Origin: Pyrrhoderma lamaoense | Lineage: Eukaryota > Basidiomycota > Agaricomycetes > Hymenochaetales > Hymenochaetaceae | DNA: 64,000 nt | Direction: 5' to 3' | Assembly (NCBI GenBank): GCA_002794735.1 | Contig: NBAZ01000001.1 | Location: 744,001 to 808,000, forward strand | In this document: positions 52,565-63,064 of the stretch, one piece after another | Layout: each line of letters starts with the position of its first letter | Position numbering within the stretch: the stretch's first letter is position 1 | Program-made: the position numbers and the translations under genes | The notes under the pieces: generated by a model | Database searches by the model: none | Told to the model about the DNA's origin: nothing | Seen by the model: only the letters and a program-made list of their open reading frames with translations

Positions 52565-54740
52565 ATGAGCAATTCGGGCAACATTGGGCGTCCGTGGACA
52601 CCATATGAAGACGGTCTTCTTACTGAAGCTGTTCATAAATATGGTGAAAATACGGAGAAATGGAAAATAATTGCTCTTTCAGTTCCGGGAAGAACGAATA
52701 AAGCTTGTCGAAAGGTATGTAATTATAGTAGTTCGAAATATGGATCAAGCAATGAATAAATTTATCTTAGCGATGGCTACATTCCTTATCTCCATCCGTG
52801 AAGAAATCTGCGTGGACTTCTGAAGAAGACCAGCTTTTACTATCGCTATTCGAGAGATATCCTAATAAATGGTCTCAAATTGCAAGGGAAATCCCTGGTC
52901 GGACAGATGATGCATGCTCAAAACGATATCGCGAAGCTCTGGATCCAAATCTGAAGAAAGATGAATGGACGGAGGACGAGGATAAAAGACTTTTAGAGGC
53001 ATTGACTAGGCACGGTGGTCCATCAAGGCCAAAGTGGGGACTAATTGGCCAGGAATTACGTCGTAGTGGGCTTGGATGCAGGAATAGATGGAGACTACTT
53101 GAACGTAAGAGACTAGCTTCTGTTCGTCAAACATCCTCTTTGTCTGGCAATCTTCCTTCACAAGGAATGCCGGATTTATCTCCGTTCCCGTTGAGGATAA
53201 TGCAATATCATTCTGGGACTCGTCATGGGACCCATCTGAGCTTGGTATTCCTGTTATCTGGCAAGGTCAACCTACCTCTGAACTCAGTCTACCTTTGAAT
53301 AAGGTGGCCATGTTTGGGCAACCTGAATCCTCGGCACTTATGGAACATCGCTCGGATTATTTCCGGCCCAGTTCAATACAAACCAATTTAATAGCCCAGC
53401 AAGCAAGTGAAGGAGGCAATTTTTCATCCATGACGTTCAACGATACATTCCGCACCACCATATACTACGGAACATCGGTCAACCTATCATAGATAATCTA
53501 CCTCTCGATATGACATTCAATGAAACCATGGACTCAGACTATCATTTACAACCGCAGTCAACCGATAATCAATTAACTATAGAAGTTCCTACTGTAGATG
53601 AAGACTCACAACTATGTTGTGGGGACTCCTTCGTAGTTCACGATTCTGAGAACACCGAAGATGTTACAATAATTGATGCAGACTCATCCGACTTGCATAT
53701 CAATATTGCGGAGCTAGAATCTGAGGTCAGCAGTGCTTCCCCAGAAGATGAGGGAGCATACTTTCCGGTGCCATCTCCCTTGCCTGACCCTTCTCTGCTA
53801 AATACTCAAGATGGATCGTCTAGACAACAAGGAGCCTCGCAGGAGCAGGAAAATCACCTCGCTCCCTTGAAAAAACGACGTCGAACTGTTACAAACGGCT
53901 CCAGTTTCCGAGGTGTACATATCATGTCAATCACTGTTGGGGATCCAAAAGCTCCGCCAAAGCTATCATCCTCGCTACCTGTCTCTAATGAGTAAGTGTG
54001 ATTCTATGGTGGCAGAAGCTCGTCGTTACAAAGTTATCAATGAGGTTTAGTTGTACTATTCTAGCATATGCATGTGGACACAAGGACTGCTGGCCAGTTA
54101 GTTGTCCGAAGAGCAAAGCATGTTATACGACCTCCGGGGAGCTTTTGGCTCATTTCAAAGATCATCATATCAGTGACTTATCTGCCTGTGAACTACCTCC
54201 GTTCAGATGTGGTCTGAAAGATTGTGGAAAGGGCTGGAAGGTTCGTGTTCTCAAACTTAGAACCTTACTTTGTTTCTGAGAAACTAGTCTCTTTGGGTAC
54301 TAGAGTATCAATGGTCTCCAATACCATCTGCAAATGTGAATTATGGTCAATTTGTAATCTACATCCATATCTGACTTTACTTTCCTAGATCAAAGGTCCA
54401 CTACATCCAAGTTCTGGGTGCTGCACGGCCAAAAATCTCGACAGAGGAAGATCTTACTAGTAGAATTTCTCCCTCCTTACCAAATGAGGAGATCACAAAG
54501 TCTAAGAGGAGAGTTCATCGGTGCACATTCACAGGGTGTGGTAAAGAATATAAACAGCTTAGTGGTTTACGTTATCATATCTTACATGTAAGTATCGATT
54601 CGTGTGGTGCACCAAGCCTCTCCTCTGACCGTACCATGTAGGGACATCCAAATATCACACCTGCACAACTTGATGCTCTGCCTCCGACGATTGCGAGTAA
54701 ACTAAGCTTAGAGAGTAAAAATCCTCAAGAGACTTCCTAA
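52565..54740 (+). CDS. Myb-repeat protein with C-terminal C2H2 zinc fingers, frame broken
   Basis: Probable nuclear DNA-binding protein. Three Myb/SANT repeats: GRPWTPYEDGLLTEAVHKY with KWKIIALSVPGRTNKACRK; SAWTSEEDQLLLSLFERY with KWSQIAREIPGRTDDACSK; and DEWTEDEDKRLLEALTRHG with KWGLIGQELRRSGLGCRNRW. A long acidic, Ser-rich middle follows. The C-terminal part has cysteine/histidine clusters (YACGHKDCWPVSC, HFKDHH, CGLKDCGKGW, HRCTFTGCGKEYKQLSGLRY, HILHGHPN), ending at the TAA 54738-54740. Frame breaks near 53180-53192 and 53448-53460 separate stretches that clearly continue each other; a third near 53995 may be an intron I placed imperfectly. The three Myb repeats resemble SNAPc/Myb families, but I do not assign an orthologue. 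Confidence 0.82.
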
Positions 54741-56689: not shown

Positions 56690-58411
56690 TACTTACTGTC
56701 CCCGAGGTAGGTTTTCCCGAAAAGTTATAATTATTCTGACCCCCAATCTGAACCTTTCGGACTTGTCGAACGATGCAAGAGAAAAAGGGATGAATGGTGG
56801 GTCTTCTGCCACCAGCCTCGTGAGAACATCAAGGTGGCCCCATCGGATTAAGTCTGGCAGAACGTTGCATCCACTCCACCCCATATTGCATAGCGGGCCA
56901 TTTGATAACGTTTGATATCGCTTCCTAAAACTTCAGAACCGGCAGGTGACTAAGGCCTGATACCATACTGTGATTATCTGCATCAATAATCTTTGTGTCG
57001 TCTTCAAGTCATGGGTTAGACAGGTACATGCATTATCATGATTTTATTTCGTAGAACTCTTCTTCAATGCGGTTATCGTGCGAAAGGGTCCTCGTAATGA
57101 CCTCAGGCTATTACTTTTATCGACTCCTACCTCTTAAAATAGGAACAACTTCGGATACATGTATAGAGGTATTTAGTCCCGAACTTACTTTTTTTTAGAT
57201 CTCTGGTCATCATCGGCTTCTGAAATCTTTCAATTTTAAGGGTAGATAAGATGTGTGCTAGTCTGGGACACCAACAATCAGATATAGACTTACCATACGG
57301 ACCGGCATTAGACTGTGCAATTACCTTGTATTTATTTGTAATTTTGCCCTACATGGGGCCCATTTCTCCATAACAGATACCAGCTTCAAATACTGGTTCA
57401 TGAAGACCGGGTAAGGGAACAATTACCAGATTGTTAATACGCACTAGAAACTATATCTAAATTTGTTGTATGCGACCTACAAATACCTCACCAAAGAAAT
57501 AAGAACACGTCAGAAAAAAAAACACACACAAGAATTTTTAGTATAAATAAACGGTTGGAAAGGACCTTGTGCTCTTAATTAGCCACGAACCAACATCCAA
57601 GAACTTAATAATACCAGAATGGGGGTACAAGGAGACATGTGAACACGTATCGTTAGGCGAATAAGCTGGAGTTAAAAAGTGTAGGCGTAACAGGGTAACT
57701 TTTGGTTCCGATACCGGTAATAGAGTGCTCGAGCCAGTCTTGTGCAGAGCAATAAGCTATCAAATCATGGCTCCAGTACAAAAGATACCTTCTGGTGATA
57801 AAGACAAATGAAATACAGGCTTTGATTCTTAAAAGGCAAATGGCGAGCGGTGGCAGTGTATTAGTTACTACAGGATCATTTCTCCTCGAGACCCTTGCTG
57901 AGTATTTATGAACACAAACAGAACAACACATCCAAGTGTTCAGTGGCTGAGGCATAGCCAATTGGAGGCACCGCCTCATCTCCAAATCATCCGGAGCGAA
58001 CAGTAGATCTGGTCCTTGGAGACAATCCATAAGGTGAGTGGCATTCTTGGCTTCTGCTAGTATTTTATTCGCCTTCGAATCTGTAATCTACGTGTAATTC
58101 GTGTGCTGGTTAGATTTACTTGGCAAAAAGGATGAATTGATTTTAGCCAATAGATCCTCATTCCGGGAATCACCACACAGAAACCAGATTAGTTGTAAAT
58201 GACATGAGCTGAGATGATGTTTCAAGCCAGTCGCTTCGGGAAATGATTGGTCAATGGTAGGAAAAGAAGGGTATGTAGTCATGACCGGAGTTCCGATATT
58301 ACAAGGCTTATAAGCCGCGAGTGAGCAAGCATCATAGATGCCAGAGATAGTATTCGTCCTCGAGTCGGATGTAAGCCGACCTTCGATACCAGAGTATAAA
58401 TCAAAAATCAA
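56690..58411 (-). CDS. Unclassified protein-coding region, incompletely resolved
   Basis: Several minus-strand stretches look coding but match no family I know. From 5' to 3': 58411-58128 (GIYDACSLAAYKPCNIGTPV, LSSCHLQLIWFLCGDSRNED), which runs into KINSSFLP; then, after a possible 39 bp intron with an in-frame stop (donor GTAAAT, acceptor TTACAG), SKANKILAEAKNATHLMDCL, LLFAPDDLEMRRCLQLAMPQ and NTLPPLAICLLRIK to about 57830. Separated by about 900 bp lies LGSDIKRYQMARYAIWGG and, after a frame change near 56865, PDLIRWGHLDVLTRLVAEDP and DKSERFRLGVRI to 56690. They may be exons of one gene or of two. No signal peptide or catalytic motif was recognised. Confidence 0.4.
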
Positions 58412-59055
58412 AGGCGGCCGTACGATGTCGTCTATCGCTGATCACGGCATTAATACCAAGAAAGGCTCGAAGGGGTGGGTCAAGTGTGCACGAGAGGAGT
58501 ACGAGAGAGGTAAAGATAATCAGGGCGTCGTTTGAGAAGACTGAGAAAAGGTTTCAAGTTGATTATTGACATAACCTAAGGAATGATCATGAACTTTCTG
58601 GGCGTGAGATGCAAGATGTAAAGCCACTGCGCTGGCACCGGGGGACTCGGAAGGACCTGGTTTCCGTATTAGATGGATTGCTCACGAGTAATTCTGAGTT
58701 GTCGATGATATAATACAGTGTTTTCGCTAGCAGATACATATGATGCTGGTCTTGGGAGCAGAGAGACTGACGGGTGAAAAGCATGCTACATGTCAGTGGG
58801 CAGACACCTAGTTAGGAATGGCGATCTGTCGATAGATATAAATCAATAAAATAAAGATTAATGCCATGTGGACATTCCCGTATTAGGAGGTGGCATTCAT
58901 ATACCGGTAATGTACTCGCGGGGTCCGAGTTGAATCCACTCCCACAGTGTTATAAAAAGGCTTCAGCCCTCTCCCAAGCCCCCACCCTCCCACCTTCGCT
59001 GACGCTGCGCCAGAACAACCTCGCCCTTCAGCTGTGAATCCGTAAAATCTCTCAA
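58412..59055 (+). promoter_or_regulatory. Promoter of peptide precursor gene A
   Basis: TATAAAAA at 58951-58958 lies 98 bp before the ATG at 59056, followed by a C-rich stretch near 58970-59000, typical of a strong fungal promoter and leader. Nothing coding is supported in the rest. Confidence 0.5.
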
Positions 59056-59710
59056 ATGTTGTCCACAAAGATTACTCTTGTGCTCTCTTGTCTGTTTTCT
59101 CTACTCTTCGTTGTATATGCTGCTCCCGTATGTCTCCGCTCGGATTTAAGAATAATGCGCCGCTCTCTCACATTTTCTGCCCGCAATCATCTTTAGGTGG
59201 CTTCCCCCAACGAGCTTCTTGAACGTGTCCCTGAGCCTGTAAGTTTAAACTAGATAAGAGGTGTACTGCATATGTAGTTTATGTCCTTCAACTTCAAGGC
59301 CTTTGGTGATTCGGCTCAGGATTGGAAGAGGGTTAGTTGCCTACTCGATCTTCGTTAAATAGCCCAACATATAGTTAACTAAATATATTATCTCAGCAAA
59401 TGGGTAGCATGGACAAAGACTGGAAAAGGGTGAATTAGATTCTAGTACAGACCGCTGAGTATGTGGTATTCTAAAAGTTAAATTATTACAGGGGATGGGC
59501 GGAAATGACCAAGACTGGAAACGAGTGCGTAACCTCCCTTTTAATTTCTTAAAACATAGTGATGCCGACGTAGCTGTAGAGCAATGGCATGAACCAGGAC
59601 TGGAAGAGAGTGAGAAATTCCTCCCGTCTTATAATTTGATATTCTCCTTTCAATCAGACGTCTGACAGTATGCACAGGGCCTGGGTGGCATGGATAACGT
59701 ACAGGCTTGA
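59056..59710 (+). CDS. Secreted multi-peptide precursor A: one DW-KR peptide per exon
   Basis: Seven exons (59056-59127, 59197-59238, 59299-59331, 59397-59429, 59492-59524, 59580-59609, 59678-59710) give 91 residues; every intron is GT-AG and phase 0. Exon 1 is a signal peptide: a Lys near the start, a hydrophobic core, then AYAAP-like small residues (VVYAAP). Exon 2 is a short acidic spacer (VASPNELLERVPEP). Exons 3-6 each encode one unit ending DWKR: AFGDSAQDWKR, QMGSMDKDWKR, GMGGNDQDWKR, SNGMNQDWKR. Exon 7 (GLGGMDNVQA) is a degenerate terminal unit without DW. Lys-Arg is the Kex2 site, so four short peptides ending in Asp-Trp are predicted. Codons of the repeated DWKR differ (AAG AGG, AAA AGG, AAA CGA, AAG AGA), which argues for selection at protein level. 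Function unknown; pheromone, signalling peptide or RiPP precursor are options. Confidence 0.85.
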
Positions 59711-60602
59711 TGCCTTAAATGCTATAATAAGATGGGTTATTGTCGTTCTCTGGGTTTTGTGCTTGTGGATTAGGGGTTTTGTGTGGTGTACGTTCATTGC
59801 TTGTCAACTCAATAATTTGTATCCGACCAGTTTTTGATGATCTGCTTCCATAGACTGTATTCTATCTCGTCTTTCCTACCTTTTCAAACTTTATAACCGT
59901 TCTTTCCTACTCCGTACCGTGCTCTATTAATCGAAACTTCTTCCGCCTCTTTATTGCTGCTTCGACACAAAGTCACTTTATATAAATGTGCTTTTCGAAT
60001 TCTCCATCTATTTGTTGAACTTTCTACGTAAAATTTCTGCTCCCAACTGGTCGTTTGGGCTGTCCGACGATATTATACTTTCCTTAGTTGTTTCTTGTTG
60101 ATACTGCCAATGCGCCGATGACGCATTTTGTCAACTTGACTATTAGTTATTTTTTCATCTCCGTCCTTCATTTTTTTTTCCATCTTTCCCACTTCTGGAT
60201 GAAATAAGCTATTGAATCTATTTTTTTTTCCAAGTTCTCTCTATTCTTCCACCCCCCCTCCCACTTACCCCTCTTCCGCTCCTTTTTTGCTTCCGCTATT
60301 CTCATGCCAGAGTCTTGGACGCGCATTGCGCCTTCTTTGGACATACCCAGAGCTCTGCCTTCTCGCTTCTCTGTATTCTAAGCTAGACTTCATTCGGAAA
60401 GCAAGGAACCCCGTATCCAGTGCAAGTGTAGCTCTTTTTTTGTTACCAATAAGCAATGTTAAATTCTTATCTTCCCCCTCCCCCCCCCCCCCTGTATTAT
60501 CATCGCTATTCTCACTCTTTATGGTCAGAGAATCCACGCGCTCTCCTGTACTTCCTTCTTTTCCTCTTCTTTTTTTATTGATACTTAATTCAGGGTTTTG
60601 AT

Positions 60603-60648
60603 GCACACACTCACTCACGCACGCACACACACACACATACACACACAG
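60603..60648. repeat. CA-rich microsatellite
   Basis: Interrupted (CA)n with CACT and CACG variants. Confidence 0.85.
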
Positions 60649-61399
60649 TAGAGAGAAAGAAAGAGATTAAGGGATCTTTAAACTTTTTGAGTTGCTGTGT
60701 TGCTGCGCAGTCAGCCACAGGCCGCAATACTATAGGTTGATTGGCTGGGTATGGGCGTGAAGCCAGTTATCCTCCACACCCAGCCACTTCCACTTCATGG
60801 ATGCTTTTAGAAGGCGCGCGCGGGGGGGGGGGCTGTGGCTGGACGAAGATCAGAAACCCGTAAGAAACTTGGAAAGAAACTATAATTTGAGTGATAATTC
60901 TTCACGTACATCAGATTGTCACATTATAACTATAATATATATTTTCTCACTGCTCCGCTCACAAATAACTCGAAACTTTTACGAGAGCTTTGTCATTTCG
61001 TTAGGATATAAATAAACAAATAAACGAATGAAAGAGTTAAAAAAGATAGAGAGATTTGTGGTTTAAGAGTATAATTGAAGAACGCCCCCCTCCCCACCAA
61101 CTTCCCCCTGCCCTTTATTCTTCTCTCCTCCTATGAATGAAAAAAGGCGGAGAGAAGAAGTGGTGTTGGTGTTGGTTACTACAACCACAACACGTCTTTT
61201 TTTTCTACTTTGTCGTTATCGATCGCAATGTGGAAATTAAAAATGAAAGTAAAGAGAAGAACCTAGAATCCCGTTCTTCGAGTGCTTCGCAAATAAAAGT
61301 TACTTAAATAGAACATATGATAATAATACCTATTTTGTTTTGTTATATACACATATGTTACAAAGTAAACAAAAATAAATAATAAATAGTAAATAATAG

Positions 61400-61417
61400 T
61401 AATAATAATAATAATAA
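61400..61417. repeat. AAT/ATA trinucleotide repeat
   Basis: About six AAT units in AT-rich DNA; a similar short AAT tract occurs at 62457-62472. Confidence 0.75.
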
Positions 61418-61827
61418 ACGAAAAAGAAGATTGAGGATTAATATATTATAATTATAATTATTAAAGAAATGAGAATTTGAAACAATCTGAAAGAGTTATT
61501 TGTATCTTTAATCTTACTTCTCTTTCGTTCGTTCGAGATTCATTAAAAAAAAAAAAAAGAGAGATGCCATCCCCTCCAACCCTCCCCAAAGACGCAAGAC
61601 GTGCCGAGTATCGAGTACGGGATCAAGGCACCTCCTTCTTAAGAGAAGATGTCTGATGTGCCAAGTTTATTGGACTTCTGTGGTGACTTACCTTGGCTAT
61701 CTTGTTACTCCATATTGAACAAATGAGATATTTAACTTGTCGAAGTGTCGGAGTGAGTGAGTTCTCAGACGTGGCTCAATTCAAGAGACGCCGGTCAAAT
61801 GTTGTCAGACGATAGAAAAGAAGAGAA

Positions 61828-61855
61828 AAGAGAGAGAGAGAGAGCAGCAGCAGCA
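61828..61855. repeat. GA dinucleotide repeat followed by CAG units
   Basis: (AG)n of about 8 units followed directly by four CAG units. Confidence 0.75.
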
Positions 61856-62680
61856 TGCTTGCGCGAGAGCACGATTCCGAGGTTGAATGACGAAGCCGTT
61901 TAGAAACCCCGTGAGCGATCGATATATCGGATATGTGACACCCCCAACTTATTCCGTTCAAGACTTTTTTCCCCCTTCTTCCGTACTCAAACGAGCACAG
62001 CTTTTTCTTTTCTTTCTTAATTTCTTCGAGAGCTTGGCCCCGTCGTCAATTATTATGCTTACTCGATATTGTGACAATGGGCCCCCCTCGAATGACAGCA
62101 TCGGCATCCGTATTCTTGGATCAGTTCGAGAAAATATACCCTATCAAGGACGGGGATACCGACAGCTGCGGAAGACGGAGCTCGCTATAAGTGGAAGGTT
62201 TGCCCCAGGGAATTGCAGCTGACTGGCTCGATTGTAAGCCCAGGGGTAAAAGAAGCAATGTCGACAATCCAGGAGCGGGCCTGAAACGTGACACACGTAA
62301 CGCCCAATGATGATTTCCTTGGGTCAGGCTGTAACTCTCCCCCTTGGCATACAATTATCACAATTTGACTGTTTAAACTTGTTTTTTTTGTTTGTTTTTA
62401 ATTGTGCAAGCTCATGAGTATACATTCTTTCCCTATTCAGATGCTAGAAAAGAGTAGTAATAATAATAATAATATTAACAATAATTATTGTAGATCCACA
62501 AAGGCAAGAATGAGGACGGAGCATGAGAAAGAAAGAAAAGGCGAGGAAATGAAGAAAACGAGTGAACCTGAAGGTTTTTACTTTCGCCAAAAAGCAGGGG
62601 TTGCCAGGCACCGCCCGTTCCTGGACTCGGATCTGTGCACTCTCTCAGCATTCTGCCCTGGCCCATCTCCCTCCCATGCT

Positions 62681-62690
62681 ACTTAAAAAG
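62681..62690 (+). promoter_or_regulatory. TATA-like element of peptide gene B
   Basis: ACTTAAAAAG about 156 bp before the ATG, followed by a CT-rich leader up to the start codon. Confidence 0.35.
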
Positions 62691-62845
62691 CGTACGAGTC
62701 CCTTCTCATCCCCCTCACTTGTTCTCCCCTGTCCTCCCGAGCGTCTAATCTCCACACTATAATCAATTCTCCAAACTAAACGCTCTTCTGTGCTTTCAAT
62801 CCACCTAGCACTCGAAACACCATACAATTAACCACTTCACACACA

Positions 62846-63064
62846 ATGCGCTTCGCCCCACTCCTCGTCGTCCTCGCTGCAACTATCTCAGCCGTCATCG
62901 CAGCTCCTTCCCACGGGAAGCGTATCTCCCAAGACTGGAAGAGAGAGGCTGAGGCCGAAGCTTTTGGAGGAGGTGATCGGGACTGGAAGCGGGAACCTGT
63001 TTCACAGGACTGGAAACGCGTCGCTTCACCTGAGCCTGTCGTCGGAATGAGCAAGGATTGGTAG
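62846..63064 (+). CDS. Secreted multi-peptide precursor B: alpha-factor-like DW-KR repeats
   Basis: A single exon encodes 72 residues. The first 20 are a signal peptide (Arg near the start, LLVVLAATISAVIAA core, cleavage after AIAA-like residues). Then come PSHGKR, ISQDWKR, EAEAEAFGGGDRDWKR, EPVSQDWKR and VASPEPVVGMSKDW with the stop. Three internal peptides end DW-KR, and the fourth ends exactly at DW. EAEAEA and EP directly after KR resemble the spacers trimmed by dipeptidyl aminopeptidase (Ste13) in yeast alpha-factor. The codons after the TAG (AAG AGA) would read Lys-Arg. The VASP element also occurs in the spacer of gene A, so the two genes are related. The coding call rests on the signal peptide, repeat structure and shared motif. 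The receptor and role are unknown. Confidence 0.85.
   Translation: MRFAPLLVVLAATISAVIAAPSHGKRISQDWKREAEAEAFGGGDRDWKREPVSQDWKRVASPEPVVGMSKDW

Follow-up and report, generated by a model that had tools for sequence, protein, structure and literature searches.

Secreted Kex2-processed repeat proteins (KEPs) were named in PMC6339444, and the available text of that study describes a conserved XSDW motif together with Ste13 signatures in Basidiomycota. According to the accessible part of PMC9769878, the peptide SGTGEASAADW from L. edodes and the peptides MSGVAADW, SGVAADW, and LSGVAADW from Pleurotus were detected by MS, the precursors of MSGVAADW carry Ste13 motifs, and a Ste13 motif is reported for the Pleurotus precursors and not for the Lentinula one. 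As DW peptides derived from KEPs are already described in these portions of PMC6339444 and PMC9769878, the kind of peptide considered here is a known one. Within the same accessible part of PMC9769878, a KEP is recognized when one fragment resembles at least two others, with 40% identity if the fragments are short; expression of a C. cinerea KEP in Pichia led to peptides with a single-arginine end, knocking out six KEP genes in C. cinerea did not produce an apparent phenotype, and it was proposed that the KEPs of this fungus have a role towards other organisms.

The DNA analyzed here, referred to as the window, is a stretch of 64,000 nucleotides from Pyrrhoderma lamaoense (contig NBAZ01000001.1), and the genome searched along with it comprises 30.65 Mb in 72 contigs. 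This genome gave 15 Peroxidase_ext matches, two of which (C12:68336-69315) lie on opposite strands with about 600 bases between them; for one of these peroxidases, the best match of a 201-aa piece was manganese peroxidase 1mnp. We take this peroxidase set to be typical of agaricomycetes and the fungus to be, presumably, a white-rot agaricomycete.

Gene 1 extends over seven exons on the forward strand (window positions 59056-59710) and encodes a conceptual precursor of 91 aa. Exon 1 (59056..59127, 72 nt) encodes a signal-like peptide, MLSTKITLVLSCLFSLLFVVYAAP, whose hydrophobic stretch was read from the translation, and exon 2 (59197..59238, 42 nt) encodes the spacer VASPNELLERVPEP. Four exons follow that each contain one complete unit, namely exon 3 (59299..59331, 33 nt; AFGDSAQDWKR), exon 4 (59397..59429, 33 nt; QMGSMDKDWKR), exon 5 (59492..59524, 33 nt; GMGGNDQDWKR), and exon 6 (59580..59609, 30 nt; SNGMNQDWKR). 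Exon 7 (59678..59710, 33 nt including the TGA stop), for which the acceptor was chosen by us, encodes the degenerate unit GLGGMDNVQA, in which DW and KR are both lost; this exon is similar above shuffles to exons 4 and 5 and not to exons 3 and 6. The core thus ends in DW in four of five units. The series of signal exon, spacer exon, DWKR units of 33, 33, 33, and 30 nt and degenerate end put forward in the original prediction was borne out by direct reading, as were its phase-0 GT-AG introns (6/6, 55-69 nt), and the anatomy, with one unit per phase-0 micro-exon, agrees with the Kex2-type secretory repeat precursor that had been proposed. Counted by eye, GMGGNDQDW is identical to QMGSMDKDW at 5 of 9 positions and to AFGDSAQDW at 4 of 9, and the gene 1 units between dibasic sites show the repeat similarity by which KEPs are recognized. 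The DWKR units 1 to 4 lie in reading frames 0, 2, 1, and 2, respectively, and because they are spread over all three frames, a single protein containing them requires splicing. Upstream of gene 1, positions 52771-53295 encode a piece of a Myb-type DNA-binding protein (Pfam Myb_DNA-binding, two stretches).

In order to evaluate the splice sites, scores of the proposed introns were compared with those of random GT..AG pairs of 50-70 nt. The splice model was seeded with a fungal-type prior, a score cut-off of 1 was used, and 33 reference introns joining long open frames were retained from 81 candidate groups in an automatic and rough procedure; a looser initial model based on 804 ORF-pair groups lacked a usable consensus and was replaced by this stricter one. 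The local reference introns (n=33) have a median length of 60 nt, compared with the 55-69 nt of gene 1. Scores equal to those of intron 1 (59128..59196, 69 nt), intron 2 (59239..59298, 60 nt), intron 4 (59430..59491, 62 nt), and intron 5 (59525..59579, 55 nt) were reached by 0.7, 3.1, 2.3, and 2.8% of random pairs, respectively, intron 2 being without a good branch-like site and intron 5 having weak ones. In two cases the splice sites are weak: intron 3 (59332..59396, 65 nt), with the weak donor GTTAGT, was equalled by 13.1% of random pairs and intron 6 (59610..59677, 68 nt), in which a CTGAC branch-like site begins 16 nt before the intron end, by 7.5%, and the rank of 0.00 of both within the reference set is partly due to the cut at score 1. 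Altogether, the scores of gene 1 are better than those of about 87-99% of random GT..AG pairs. An alternative acceptor for intron 6 at position 59657 was rejected, as it had a score of -0.74 compared with 0.84 for the chosen one, was equalled by 19.2% instead of 7.5% of random pairs and would lead to a long hydrophobic tail (TSDSMHRAWVAW...) unlike the units.

A second DW precursor gene, gene 2 (62846..63064, forward strand), which was missing from the original prediction, is located 3.1 kb downstream of gene 1. It is intronless and encodes 72 aa, arranged as MRFAPLLVVLAATISAVIAAPSHGKR (hydrophobic leader and APSHGKR), ISQDWKR, EAEAEAFGGGDRDWKR, EPVSQDWKR, and VASPEPVVGMSKDW followed by the stop codon, so that three DWKR units and one DW-stop unit are present and all four units beyond the APSHGKR piece end in DW. 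In both proteins the hydrophobic N-termini, read by eye, end in VYAAP or VIAAP. XA/XP pairs occur after KR in gene 2 (KREAEAEA, KREP, and KRVASPEP), and such dipeptides are absent after KR in gene 1. Neither precursor reached the cut-off of any Pfam family, no relative of the gene 1 product was found among solved structures (best E 0.44), and nothing matched in Rfam between positions 58000 and 64000 of the window. When the gene 2 precursor was used as protein query against its own genome only the self-match was obtained, and the 655-base upstream regions of genes 1 and 2 have no 10-mer in common. The adjacency of the two genes is not odd, because, according to the available text of PMC7329392, 767 of the 6120 KEPs that have no DUF3328 neighbor are accompanied by another KEP gene. 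The region between genes 1 and 2 (59711-62845) contains no evident gene; it is rich in pyrimidine runs and short AT repeats and includes two frames, of 132 and 133 aa, that run from stop to stop.

Could short open stretches ending in DWKR ahead of GT have arisen simply by accident? Units following AG, open, ending in KR or RR and then followed by GT were chained over introns of 45-90 nt, DW not being asked for, on both strands of 164 kb (the window plus 50 kb per side). Isolated units of this type are frequent, with 69 on one strand and 79 on the other, which by itself would favor chance; however, the longest chain in the 164 kb was four units and corresponds to gene 1, the maximum on the opposite strand was two, and among 120 scans of dinucleotide shuffles (60 shuffles, two strands each) a chain of three occurred in three and a chain of four in none, even without a requirement for DW. 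In the whole genome, DWKR codons followed by GT gave 19 matches (10 in the reversed control), four of which are gene 1, and a gene 2 match to this pattern lies 3.4 kb past the last gene 1 match; DWKR followed by a codon pair including XA/XP gave 4 matches (5 in the reversed control), three of which are in gene 2; and plain DWKR codons gave 158 matches compared with 177 in the reversed control. Plain DWKR is not commoner than in its control, again a point in favor of chance, and as the plain and XA/XP-type counts do not exceed the reversed control it is clustering and not abundance that is unusual. At least three DWKR together on one strand were found only in genes 1 and 2, both among the plain matches listed (100 of the 158) and among all 19 GT-type and all 4 XA/XP-type matches. 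A DWKR pair at C6:139933 and 140349 was discarded as unrelated, since the first member reads DWKS and the second is outside the main open frame; the locus looks like a gene for a coiled-coil protein. With a second DWKR gene adjoining gene 1, an accidental origin appears hardly conceivable to us.

The comparison of the two genes also bears on whether gene 1 might be related to the intact gene 2 but in decay or silent, either a pseudogene or a scarcely expressed gene, to which its degenerate final unit and its two weak splice sites might point. Against such decay, all differences between the DWKR codons of the seven units compared (four from gene 1 and three from gene 2) are synonymous; arginine uses five codons over these seven units, and DWKR was preserved in 0 of 200,000 simulations given equal numbers of random changes. 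Also, no in-frame stop interrupts the exons of gene 1 before the terminal TGA, and a TATA-like box (TATAAAA at 58951) is present 105 nt 5' of the ATG. Decay is on these grounds quite improbable, and the preferred reading is that gene 1 very probably is an agaricomycete KEP that is spliced and releases short linear DW peptides.

In the genome, Kex2-type P-domain matches occur at two places and there is one DPPIV_N match; from these Kex2-type and Ste13-type family matches, the sequence anatomy, the frames, the codon conservation, and the presence of gene 2, we infer how genes 1 and 2 would be transcribed, spliced, processed, and employed. Removal of the six short phase-0 introns would lead to the 91-aa precursor, which would enter the secretory pathway, where a Kex2-type protease would cleave after KR and a Kex1-type carboxypeptidase would trim KR to give linear peptides ending in DW. 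As the final unit of gene 2 is DW-stop, the mature peptides most likely end in DW, and DW as mature end fits Kex1 trimming of KR. Peptides predicted from gene 1 are AFGDSAQDW or a longer form of it, QMGSMDKDW, GMGGNDQDW, and SNGMNQDW, and in the spacer the VP-EP that follows the single R in LLER would fit a Ste13-type trimming that yields AFGDSAQDW. For gene 2 an additional Ste13-type trimming of the EA/EP/VASPEP spacers is predicted, giving ISQDW, FGGGDRDW, VSQDW, and VVGMSKDW; judged from their sequence, these spacers (EA, EP, and VA-SP-EP) belong to the type that Ste13-type dipeptidyl aminopeptidases cut off. The DW peptides would probably have an extracellular role, either in signaling or in interactions with other organisms.

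A signal-like leader and Kex2-cut repeats are also features of the secreted precursors of dikaritins (ustiloxin, phomopsin, and asperipin), and gene 1 could thus be a RiPP precursor of this type, with cores that UstYa (DUF3328) proteins would cyclise; matches to this family are present in the genome. However, the six UstYa matches are located on contigs C5 (1048543-1079442, four matches in about 31 kb), C6 (1202450), and C11 (626018) and none on C1, the contig of gene 1, and tyrosine is absent from every unit of genes 1 and 2. Because the UstYa matches are on other contigs and the cores are without tyrosine, this explanation is disfavored and we regard it as very improbable. The C5 group suggests a possible dikaritin-type cluster elsewhere in the genome; no precursor was found in the 16 kb scanned near these matches. 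A scan for dibasic repeats in the window, its flanks, and the 16 kb at the C5 UstYa matches returned only gene 2 and a basic-rich stretch at L037:5087-5305, which was taken for chance.

In gene 1, eight of ten exon pairs are alike at p of 0.05 or less. Recent intron copying of the introner-like kind is not supported, as with 15 tests no intron pair is conspicuous (15 pairs; lowest p 0.013, for introns 5 and 6). Exon likeness without intron likeness would fit two histories: blocks of an exon plus an intron were duplicated long ago and selection has since acted on the exons alone, or the introns were gained separately. The original prediction that peptide number could change without disturbing the frame held for the five inner exons, which are all symmetric and of which all 32 possible subsets preserve the frame. 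Retention of intron 1 or 2 leaves zero units, retention of intron 3, 4, or 5 truncates the product after 1, 2, or 3 units, respectively, and retention of intron 6 leaves all four. Together with the weak donor of intron 3 and a microexon switch reported for Trichoderma Xlr2 in the available text of PMC11121469, these properties could indicate a device tuned by splicing, in which skipping or retention sets the number and kind of DW peptides according to condition. On the other hand, duplication of exon-plus-intron blocks alone also yields symmetric exons. Fungal splicing proceeds mostly by intron definition and varies mainly through intron retention, so that skipping of exons of 30-33 nt is less to be expected than retention. 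We consider such tuning unlikely on balance; regulation of gene 1 through exon skipping appears possible from the exon structure, and should the output be tuned by splicing, retention would be no less likely a mechanism than skipping.

The original prediction knew of no described fungal family of this design, which stands at most for the exon layout, absent from the literature searched, and does not stand for the peptides, since DW-ending KEPs are described in Basidiomycota (PMC6339444, PMC9769878). In the literature searched, mainly the main texts of freely accessible papers, a KEP with each unit in its own micro-exon was not found. The layout is absent from the accessible parts of PMC8786786 and PMC10182648, neither PMC6339444 nor PMC7329392 contains the words intron, exon, or splic in its main text, and PMC9769878 mentions an intron once, on cDNA cloning. 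What seems to be undescribed is therefore the placement of one KEP unit in each symmetric micro-exon. According to their available texts, the survey in PMC6339444 drew on protein catalogs and that in PMC9769878 on a predicted proteome, and since such KEP surveys rely on predicted proteins, precursors divided into exons of 30-33 nt could escape them. A further, speculative proposal, which we hold to be possible and not probable, is that gene 1 is the first seen of a hidden fungal class in which a Kex2 unit equals a symmetric micro-exon, the number of units changes in evolution through exon duplication and is adjustable by splicing, and members were missed by proteome-based surveys as such short exons are easily lost. 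Should the layout be found again, present counts of secreted fungal peptides would be too low. Because an intronless sister with the same peptide ending adjoins it, gene 1 also offers a clean test case for the evolution of peptide repeats via exon duplication.

Other known systems resemble gene 1 in part. Ascomycete alpha-pheromone precursors (for example, MFalpha1) share the Kex2/Kex1 repeats, and with gene 2 they share EAEA-like spacers. The last unit of MFalpha1 is without KR, as in gene 1. They differ in that basidiomycete mating peptides are a-type, as described in the available text of PMC6339444. A search of the genome for STE2 gave no match, the controls being equally silent, and a search for the basidiomycete pheromone family PF08015, run without a working control, gave none either. 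In schistosome micro-exon genes a secreted protein is likewise made from short exons (available text of PMC10526429), and splice isoforms are reported for these genes in the accessible part of PMC10399815. Their introns reach up to 5 kb, compared with 55-69 nt here, in an unrelated organism, and Kex2 repeat units are absent from the description in the available text of PMC10526429; short exons between long introns, a trait of the schistosome genes, are not found in gene 1.

The closest counterparts are L. edodes KEP 2599 and P. ostreatus KEP 1091723 (PMC9769878) and the basidiomycete XSDW proteins (PMC6339444), which, as far as these sources describe them, are secreted, with several short cores between Kex2 sites and DW ends; with their predicted secretion, genes 1 and 2 fit these known DW KEPs in anatomy. 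Ste13-type spacers are common to the Pleurotus precursors, as described, and gene 2, whereas the gene 1 units are without XA/XP after KR. Compared with the described DW KEPs, the cores of the present locus are of other sequence and variable within one precursor, each core of gene 1 is contained in one symmetric micro-exon, no exon structure being given for the described genes in the accessible texts, and an intronless partner is located 3.1 kb away.
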